In this document: positions 3,515 through 37,600 of the stretch, piece by piece | How the letters are laid out: each line of letters starts with the position of its first letter | Numbering within the stretch: position 1 is the stretch's first letter | Source: Haloarcula laminariae | GTDB taxonomy: Archaea; Halobacteriota; Halobacteria; Halobacteriales; Haloarculaceae | Length of the DNA stretch: 64,000 nt | Direction of reading: 5' to 3' | NCBI RefSeq assembly: GCF_025457605.1 | Contig: NZ_JAMZFY010000001.1 | Location: 248,001 to 312,000, forward strand | Translations under genes and position numbers: made by a program | The notes under the pieces: generated by a model | The model's input: the letters and a program-made list of their open reading frames with translations, nothing else | What the model was told of the DNA's origin: nothing | The model's database searches: none

Positions 3515-3571
3515 GTGTGTTGGTACCGCGACCCTGGCTAAGTGACTTTCGGCAGGTGACAGCGGGCTGGC

Positions 3572-3624
3572 GGATTCGAACCGGAGAGAGACTCGCTTCG
3601 CTCGTCTCTCAGGGTCTCGAATCC
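3572..3624. repeat. T-arm-like palindrome I beside tRNA-Val
   Basis: Outer arms GGATTCGAACC (3572-3582) and GGTCTCGAATCC (3613-3624) are near-complementary and look like a tRNA T arm. Inner arms GAGAGAC (3586-3592) and GTCTCTC (3604-3610) pair perfectly around the core CTCGCTTCGCTC, which is the reverse complement of GAGCGAAGCGAG. It forms a long stem-loop with no coding potential of its own. Confidence 0.8.
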
Positions 3625-3662
3625 TCGCTGACCATCCGCTCCTCACGTCCGTTCGTCGCAGG

Positions 3663-3730
3663 ATGGGTCCGGGCGGATTCGGACCACGGTCACTCCGCTT
3701 TGCTTCGTTCCCTGATTCGAATCCGCCCGG
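3663..3730. repeat. tRNA-Val 3'-end copy fused to palindrome II
   Basis: Positions 3663-3687 repeat the 3' end of tRNA-Val (3772-3796) with one mismatch. The same segment forms the left arm of an inverted repeat, CCGGGCGGATTCG (3669-3681) with CGAATCCGCCCGG (3718-3730), 13 of 13 bp. The 36-nt spacer contains ctttgcttcgttcc. It resembles a truncated tRNA or attachment-site remnant rather than a functional tRNA, because the 5' half is missing. Confidence 0.8.
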
Positions 3731-3772
3731 AGAATAGTTTCATCGCTCACGTTCCGTTCGCGGGAGAATATA

Positions 3773-3846
3773 TGGGTCCGGGCGGATTCGAACCACCGAC
3801 CTCGGCCTTGTAAAGGCCACGTCATAACCGACTAGACCACGGACCC
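3773..3846 (-). tRNA. tRNA-Val (TAC)
   Basis: The minus strand has acceptor GGGTCCG/CGGACCC, anticodon stem TGGCC/GGCCG and loop TTTACAA, giving anticodon TAC. The T arm GGTTCGAATCC is intact and the discriminator is A. Its 3' end is partly duplicated at 3663-3687. Confidence 0.93.
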
Positions 3847-36574: not shown

Positions 36575-36994
36575 CTACGCGCTCGGTATCGAGCCGTCAA
36601 ACTCGTAGTCTTCGGCCCAATTGATCGATGGATGGTCGATTTCCGCTGTAAACCGCAGCTCCATCTTCTGTTCTGTAGCCTCCGCTACGGGTATCCAGTA
36701 TATCGCTTCCGTTTGGGGATATCGTACAGCAAAAACGTCGATTTCCCCCTCGTATGTCTTCTCGTGATACTCCCCATCTTTCGTGGTTTGTGAGTGTGTG
36801 TTGAACCGAATTGTCTCGGACTTGTTCTGCCACGCAGTCTTACACTGCACTCTGTGGAGTCGTTCGCCGCTATCGACTACTATGTCGTACTTATCGTTGT
36901 CGCCGAAGGGCACCGAGACGCTGTACCCCTCTGCAATAAGCCGATGAATTATTGCGGCTTCTGTCTCATCTCCCCTGTCTTTGCTGTTTGCCAT
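36575..36994 (-). CDS. PD-(D/E)XK nuclease-like protein (AT-rich gene)
   Basis: The 139-aa protein starts MANSKDRGDETEAAIIHRLIAEGYSVSVPFGDNDKYDIVV and continues HRVQCKTAW, giving the E...D-x(n)-QxK nuclease pattern found in PDDEXK_5-type endonucleases. No partner methylase or resistance gene is adjacent, so its target is unknown. Its codons are visibly AT-richer than those of all neighbours, which suggests recent transfer. A TATA-like GTTTTTATTTC (37017-37027) lies about 28 bp upstream. Hairpins with the same GATGAAA loop lie on both sides (36526-36546, 37204-37225). Confidence 0.7.
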   Translation of the reverse strand: MANSKDRGDETEAAIIHRLIAEGYSVSVPFGDNDKYDIVVDSGERLHRVQCKTAWQNKSETIRFNTHSQTTKDGEYHEKTYEGEIDVFAVRYPQTEAIYWIPVAEATEQKMELRFTAEIDHPSINWAEDYEFDGSIPSA

Positions 36995-37027: not shown

Positions 37028-37109
37028 ATCAATCTTGACGTTCAACTTCCCTCCTCGGCGGTGCCGAGCACACGCTACGCGGTGCTCGCCGATTTGTTCG
37101 CAGTAGAAG

Positions 37110-37175
37110 ACGCCCGGAGCGGGATTTGAACCGGACGAAGACTCGCTTGCGCTCGTCTTCTAGGGTTCAAATCCC
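37110..37175. repeat. tRNA-Asp 3'-end copy fused to T-arm palindrome
   Basis: Positions 37110-37132 repeat the 3' end of tRNA-Asp (37248-37270) exactly. The GGGATTTGAACC part (37121-37132) pairs perfectly with GGTTCAAATCCC (37164-37175). Inner arms GAAGAC/GTCTTC enclose the core CTCGCTTGCGCTC. The architecture is the same as at tRNA-Val (3663-3730), so the two loci probably carry members of one element family. Confidence 0.8.
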
Positions 37176-37203
37176 TCGTAGTCGTCCACAGATTCGAGCG
37201 GTC

Positions 37204-37225
37204 GCGACGCGATGAAACGCGTCGC
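37204..37225. repeat. Hairpin with GATGAAA loop, downstream of tRNA-Asp
   Basis: Arms GCGACGCG (37204-37211) and CGCGTCGC (37218-37225) surround ATGAAA (GATGAAA including the closing G). It lies 24 bp past the tRNA-Asp 3' end on the minus strand, so it could terminate that transcript, and it forms the right partner of the hairpin at 36526-36546. Confidence 0.6.
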
Positions 37226-37248
37226 TTGTCGAATTGGAATCAGAGAAA

Positions 37249-37321
37249 CGCCCGGAGCGGGATTTGAACCCGCGTCACAACCGTGACAGGGTTGTATGAT
37301 GGGCCACTACACCATCCGGGC
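37249..37321 (-). tRNA. tRNA-Asp (GTC)
   Basis: Minus-strand acceptor GCCCGGA/TCCGGGC, anticodon loop CTGTCAC (GTC), T arm GGGTTCAAATCCC and discriminator G. The 3' end is duplicated 138 bp downstream at 37110-37132. Confidence 0.95.
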
Positions 37322-37600
37322 ACGCTGCCTTGCTGCACTCAATCGTATCCCGGTCGTGGTATTAAGGCTTTCCAAAGGACGGCGCCCTGTCATGGGACCA
37401 CTTGACGGGACCCAAACGACTATATCTCACCTGACCGAACGCCGTGGTAACGCAAGCCCGCGCCCCTCGCAGTGGGGCGAGGGTCCAGTAGCTACTGCAG
37501 GCCGAGTTGGTAAGTGTTATTAGGGTGCCGACTATAGCGACCTGTAGTATCTCGTGACAGCCACCTTCTCCAGCCACAGGCCCCACGCACGCACACACAC

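Follow-up and report, generated by a model that had tools for sequence, protein, structure and literature searches.

The 3' ends of tRNA genes are a preferred entry point of archaeal viruses and plasmids. The SNJ2-type proviruses and plasmids use the tRNA 3' end, leave a copy of the host tail behind and are found in Halobacteria only (PMC8371274, PMC7911831). Their att sites are 12-14 nt long, and they carry kilobases of genes and an integrase. A different group of elements are the PATEs and SMRs of Haloquadratum walsbyi, which are short, transposase-free palindromic repeats. SMR-A is about 110 bp long and is inserted into palindromes, and neither PATEs nor SMRs duplicate their target or were described at tRNA genes (PMC3119063).

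The units described here were found in a window of 64,000 nucleotides (the whole stretch of DNA that was analysed) from Haloarcula laminariae. They share with the SNJ2-type elements the tRNA 3' end, the host-tail copy and the restriction to Halobacteria. In contrast to these elements, the units are non-coding cassettes of about 100 bp with 22-24 nt copies, built of inverted T arms (invT) and hairpin modules and placed in tandem arrays. They are distinguished from PATEs and IS605-type elements by a copy of the tRNA's own tail at the units counted, so that the absence of target duplication reported for the former (PMC3119063) does not apply to them. With respect to MITEs, the own-tail copy has a constant length of 22-24 nt and may have formed as a target duplication or by crossover. 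Integrons have the attC core GTTRRRY and a tyrosine integrase gene adjoining the anchor site. The arrays resemble them in that cassettes follow one another in tandem from a fixed anchor, insertion takes place on the anchor side and the hairpin sites have GAAC..GTTC cores in inverted orientation, but there is no integrase at the anchor, there are no cassette genes and the core is the T arm GTTCRA (GGTTCRAATCC). Leader-proximal growth with repeat duplication is shared with CRISPR and casposons, the latter also preferring tRNA 3' ends. Unlike CRISPR spacers, those of the arrays are recurrent structured modules and the "repeat" changes with each tRNA. The same core hairpin (C) modules stand at many tRNAs and genera, where CRISPR would have unique foreign spacers. 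The copies of 22-24 nt also differ from the 14-15 bp duplication of casposons, and the units are too short to encode a Cas1 endonuclease. Growing integron- or CRISPR-like arrays on many Halobacteria tRNAs, with the tail as the repeat, the T-arm hairpins as recombination sites, the machinery unnamed and tRNA-homing endonucleases exploiting the same genes, are a reading that we consider possible rather than probable. In the open-access literature searched, no account of tRNA-linked units was found, and an earlier description elsewhere is possible. The Rfam families gave no hit at gathering score over the locus except the tRNA.

The coordinates of both arrays of the window are collected in Table 1. 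On the - strand the tRNA-Asp array reads tRNA-Asp, R1, invT, C hairpin, tail copy, second R and then a 139-aa ORF. The design of the unit is R - invT - C - T, where R is a spacer with a T-rich start followed by a hairpin, invT is the inverted T-arm core GGATTYGAACC, C is the core hairpin and T is a copy, 22-24 nt long, of the 3' end of the same tRNA. The invT and T modules form inverted arms around C only and are not the termini of the whole unit. The R1 spacer occupies the proximal or distal position at tRNA-Asp in many species of the genus. The C module belongs to the class N5-ACG..CGTC-N5', which recurs at many other tRNAs.

Table 1. Features of the tRNA-Asp and tRNA-Val arrays and of the neighbouring gene in the window
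Feature	Position	Strand	Support
tRNA-Asp(gtc) gene, anchor of the array	37249..37321	-	Rfam 37249-37321; ARAGORN 37248-37322
R module, R1 type: T-rich start and hairpin AAGCGACGCG..CGCGTCGCG	37176..37248	-	
invT: inverted T arm GGGATTTGAACCC, 11-nt core 37164-37174	37163..37175	-	
C module: core hairpin AGAAGACGAGCGCAAGCGAGTCTTC	37133..37162	-	
T: perfect copy (22-23 nt) of the tRNA-Asp 3' end, covering the T arm and acceptor 3' strand	37110..37132	-	
Second R module, R3 type, CGAGCACCGCGTAGCGTGTGCTCG, beyond the tail copy	37050..37109	-	
139-aa PDDEXK_5 (PD-(D/E)XK, I-SspI-type) endonuclease gene, neighbour of the array, not proven part of it	36575..36994	-	E 6e-44
tRNA-Val(tac) gene, anchor of the second array	3773..3846	-	
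tRNA-Val array, first R module	3732..3772	-	
tRNA-Val array, first invT: 19-nt inverted copy extending into the acceptor	3713..3731	-	
tRNA-Val array, first C module, AGGGAAC..GTGACCGT class	3688..3712	-	
tRNA-Val array, first tail copy, 24/25 identical	3663..3687	-	
tRNA-Val array, second unit: R, decayed invT (about 3613-3624), C, decayed tail	3566..3662	-	

The first-pass annotation had noted an exact copy of the tRNA-Asp 3' end, 23 nt long, which is present as described, 138 bp downstream of the gene. This distance is right as a start-to-start spacing and not as a gap, the copy and the gene being 115 bp apart. The perfect inverted arms of 12 bp that it had read at this tRNA lie at 37121-37132 and 37164-37175, with 31 nt between them and the core CTCGCTTGCGCTC. 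The similar design and core that it had seen at tRNA-Val are also found there, with the arms and cores as claimed: this locus has the core CTCGCTTCGCTC and a second, long inverted copy. In the second tRNA-Val unit the C hairpin is GAGAGAC..GTCTCTC and the T arm of the decayed tail stands at 3569-3582. Folded as single-strand DNA, the tRNA-Asp palindrome lies 3.6 SD below shuffles, and the exact hairpin pattern is observed once in the 64-kb window where the expectation is 0. A chance palindrome is ruled out by this expectation, by 0 tail copies in shuffles and by 0 matches of a reversed control pattern.

The neighbourhoods of the 43 tRNAs of the genome were compared with their own tails, a copy being counted when at least 19 of 22 positions matched within 320 nt downstream. 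Own-tail copies were found downstream of 12 of the 43 tRNAs, upstream of none and in no shuffle. The carriers are Lys (two), Gly-ccc, Thr-ggt, Val (two), Asp, Tyr, Met, Leu (two) and Arg-gcg, and at all 12 the own tail fits better than the tail of every other tRNA. Degenerate units occur at further tRNAs of the genome, e.g. Gly-tcc and Arg-cct. The proposal of a repeat family flanking tRNAs, rather than chance, is borne out by these copies. The genome-wide search that the first-pass annotation had suggested, with the strict two-arm pattern, gave a single match and not the many expected, because T arms vary among tRNAs and units decay; it is the tail copies that recur. Beyond what had been noted, the copies match the host tRNA, the units build arrays and the modules are exchanged. 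At tRNA-Leu-caa of the same genome (L030, C1:1733957), a hairpin insert splits the variable arm of a downstream partial tRNA-Leu copy, and a copy of the acceptor, 11 nt long, recurs twice.

The loci collected comprise 220 units at 161 of 263 distinct tRNAs, the tRNAs with units being of about 28 types; the set is biased since loci were chosen for such copies and many were retrieved by pattern. The copies that match exactly stop at the tRNA terminus, and 139 of 190 are 22-24 nt long; a minor class starts 12-14 nt before the terminus (11-15 nt long) and is often preceded by GCTCA. The spacer between tail copies has a median of 102 nt. Counted by script, the copies are 185 of the own tail and 3 of another tail, plus one that the script missed. 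At 92 haloarchaeal loci, among the matches listed, the tail has no mismatch to its own tRNA in 38 and one in 25, with a mean of 1.2 mismatches to the own tRNA and 6.2 to other tRNAs. The invT is a repeat of the host T arm and agrees with it at base 57 in 123 of 139 units. It is not an own-specific inverted copy of the whole tail, as beyond the T arm the resemblance to the own acceptor is weak (mean 3.8 vs 3.4 of about 11.6 positions). The age of the tail copies gave no clear trend along the arrays (first above last in 12, below in 5, ties in 25).

The family is widespread in Halobacteria and restricted to them. A pattern scan of 84,980 genomes gave at least 120 loci, and 101 of the 120 among the matches listed belong to Halobacteria. 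In 92 of the 101 listed Halobacteria loci, the match is directly preceded by a tRNA on the same strand. Three of the remaining nine show the 3' half of a tRNA overlooked by ARAGORN, and most other listed loci without a tRNA are contig ends or arrays that an integrase-bearing insertion has separated from their tRNA. Across an even sample of the class, the exact pattern is present in 124 of 292 genomes and 48 of 77 genera, and the reversed control pattern gave no match in the same sample; elsewhere in the phylum the exact pattern was found in 0 of 204 genomes. Further copies, whose absence from the genome or its relatives had been named as the result that would speak against a family, are consequently present in both. 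In a Bifidobacterium genome and IMG/VR contigs (L160, L162-L165, L167), two inverted T arms surround an anticodon-stem-like hairpin and are followed by a tRNA-Met-like tail. This is an independent palindromic tRNA-derived repeat.

The C modules fall into recurring classes, namely CT-N4-GWCG..CGTC-N4'-NCC (class B), ACG-N4..N4'-CATCG and AGGGAGTGA..CGACTGA. In the class B stem, 136 of 148 pairs hold, against a shuffled mean of 91 and a maximum of 111 (kinship ignored), with compensatory changes and one G-T. Over the units, G-T makes up 1.7-3.8% of the folded pairs (kinship ignored), and the rarity of these pairs fits DNA pairing. The loops of the C modules conform to GARCGNAGYGAG, a pattern of GCGNAGC/ACGNAGT mini-hairpins with flanking tandem G-A. 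Motifs of this type form unusually stable DNA hairpins, and the loops hint at a single-stranded DNA stage. The covarying stems, together with the T-rich start and the place of the units directly behind highly transcribed genes, could also be taken as a host RNA function, in which the unit would act within the tRNA transcript as a terminator, a processing signal or a switch by invT/T-arm pairing. The match of invT to host base 57 would suit such a switch, and in the predicted RNA fold the 5' acceptor strand of the tRNA can pair with the distal tail. However, most tRNAs have no unit, close species vary freely at one tRNA, G-T pairs are rare and only the tRNA itself reaches the Rfam gathering score. 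A host RNA function is accordingly regarded as quite improbable.

The variation at tRNA-Asp shows where the units enter. In two species of one genus (L178, L181) the locus reads tRNA-Asp-R1-flank with no unit, over 81-90 bp. Eight relatives with the same flank have a unit at the tRNA-Asp end, mostly ahead of R1. The unit types are R4-C1 (L177), R2-C1 (L190, L194), R3-C (L193, L195), R2-C2 (L196, L197) and R1-C2 followed by R2 (L173); in L190 the module beyond the unit is R4 and not R1. Units are therefore gained and lost, and insertion usually takes place at the tRNA end. Tandem duplicates of tRNA-Asp with an R-like spacer between the genes were also observed in several species of the genus (L173, L177, L190, L192-L197).

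The modules also spread between tRNAs. In one genus the C module CTGGAAGACGAGCGNNGCGAGTCTTC is found downstream of Arg, Leu-tag, Leu-gag, Pro, Gln, Val and Thr; in most cases the tail of the local tRNA comes next, at times in decayed form. The R2-C2 unit of tRNA-Asp is found as well behind tRNA-Gly in Natronorubrum, a member of another family, where it is 76% identical over 119 nt and carries the Gly tail. The tail copy of a tRNA-Thr array in L247 is interrupted by an R3-C2 unit with an Asp tail, after which Thr-like tail sequence continues. Both junctions are at the T arm, and the same kind of unit stands at tRNA-Asp in a sister species. In L068 and L092 the C module is reverse-complemented between invT and T.

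That the units were inserted at the tRNA ends is highly probable. The reading of the units as minimal non-coding mobile cassettes of about 85-140 bp that target the 3' ends of tRNA genes and are probably mobilised by a tyrosine recombinase acting in trans is given an even chance, and a tRNA-targeting tyrosine recombinase as the class of enzyme an even chance at best; we infer both the enzyme and a circular intermediate. The hairpin invT-C-T, with two inverted T-arm cores as its arms, would be the recombination site. A circular or hairpin cassette would be joined to the tRNA via the T arm, its tail restoring the tRNA, by a recombinase that resident proviruses or plasmids may supply in trans. 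An insertion would leave the tRNA gene complete, and its last 22-24 bp would be found once more on the far side of the cassette. Since each insertion leaves a tail copy, repeated insertions would give the array tRNA-R-invT-C-T-R-invT-C-T-R.

On the other hand, a transposase or a Cas1-like integrase might nick the strands 22-24 bp apart, in the T-stem and at the tRNA terminus, with repair duplicating the interval as a long target-site duplication. Such a staggered cut directly explains the own tail in the tRNA and in the distal copy at about 28 tRNA types, for which it is the better fit, and accounts for the sharp boundary at 22-24 nt. Casposons, too, enter at the 3' ends of tRNA genes and give duplications of 14-15 bp. 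Recombination through the T arm is consistent with the inverted cores, with L247 and with the C modules in inverted orientation. It is ranked above the staggered cut because donor tails do travel, as in L247, where the donor tail was carried along and the junctions are at the T arm. Moreover, the units have no terminal inverted repeats common to all, R and C reassort and no enzyme of this kind was identified, so that a staggered cut is considered rather unlikely. The recombination via the T arm has its own difficulty: a single crossover would pass the donor acceptor strand to the recipient, and moves between tRNAs therefore need a target-duplicating step or later conversion. It also stands against a recombinase that SNJ2-like integrases use just 12-14 nt of the tail, not 22-24.

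SNJ2-like tRNA integrases, a label that rests on the domain pair and the Halobacteria range (PMC8371274) and not on a tree, are present in 139 of 145 Halobacteria genomes. The att site adjoining their gene is a 12-14 nt tail with no invT, comparable to the published 13 bp att of the pleolipovirus-like Humcor2 (PMC7911831). An integrase whose att is made of invT-C-T was sought and rejected: in four integrase-linked arrays (L138, L278, L308 and L112, the last read by eye) the integrase is separated from a complete R-invT-C-T unit by the 12-14 nt att. In these, a provirus-like element entered a tRNA that already bore an array, pushing the array away. None of the 13 integrase-domain matches in this genome is beside a tail-carrying tRNA, the units encode no recombinase gene, and a related-loci search with the integrase as query returned no loci. 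No free cassette was found in the viral and phage collections and no phage matched any unit; viral carriers were discarded, as the IMG/VR matches are repeats like those of Bifidobacterium and not haloviral. A smaller class of inserts with a 12-14 nt tail copy after GTTCGC-hairpin-GCTCACT was noted at tRNA-Gly-ccc (L010) and in L172, L174, L243, L275 and L069. Inserts of this class are found within T copies of the main class as well, splitting them, and their tail copy has the length of SNJ2-type att sites.

The units could alternatively be scars of integrated viruses or plasmids, each being an attL/attR pair after loss of the interior. Haloarchaeal integrations at tRNAs do leave tail copies, and the minor 12-14 nt copies, often after GCTCA, fit an SNJ2-type att. 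The uniform size and common internal modules of the units are, however, unlike random deletions. Most copies are longer than the 12-14 nt tail of an SNJ2 scar, and the gap between copies holds no integrase. Known att sites have no invT, nor has the longer tRNA-Thr piece of the HF2 attP, and the arrays that adjoin integrases are those displaced behind a 12-14 nt att. Scars are thus an improbable origin.

The neighbour of the tRNA-Asp array belongs to PDDEXK_5, which we take to be the family of the tRNA-intron homing enzyme I-SspI. Its relatives occur in 88 of 194 genomes. Among 50 members examined (L330-L379), 49 lie downstream of a same-strand tRNA, and L371 has tRNA-Lys beyond the gene. The neighbouring tRNA is Asp in 40 of the 50 (about 46-100% identity) and Pro, Asn or Lys in the others, nine have the same tRNA on the far side too, and the lineages track the tRNA type. 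The family is a candidate for free-standing tRNA-homing endonucleases. The ORF lies at a median of 155 bp from the tRNA when no tail copy stands between them, 267 with one and 382 with two, as expected if cassettes were inserted between the tRNA and the ORF. This tRNA linkage at Asp, Pro, Asn and Lys would also suit an origin by break repair, in which these or similar endonucleases cut the tRNA genes, and duplication with template switching yields the copies and inverted arms. Nevertheless, PDDEXK_5 genes are found at four tRNA types only, most members of the genus with Asp arrays lack them, and the C and R modules held in common require a donor, which makes this origin very improbable.

The arrays mislead annotation tools: at L074, ARAGORN called a tRNA plus its array an intron-containing tRNA. 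If the proposed reading is true, tiny cassettes that remodel these tRNA ends throughout the class would alter the reading of attachment sites, provirus boundaries and tRNA transcripts. Few known mobile units would then be as small as these cassettes, which could reveal how recombinases change their tRNA target.
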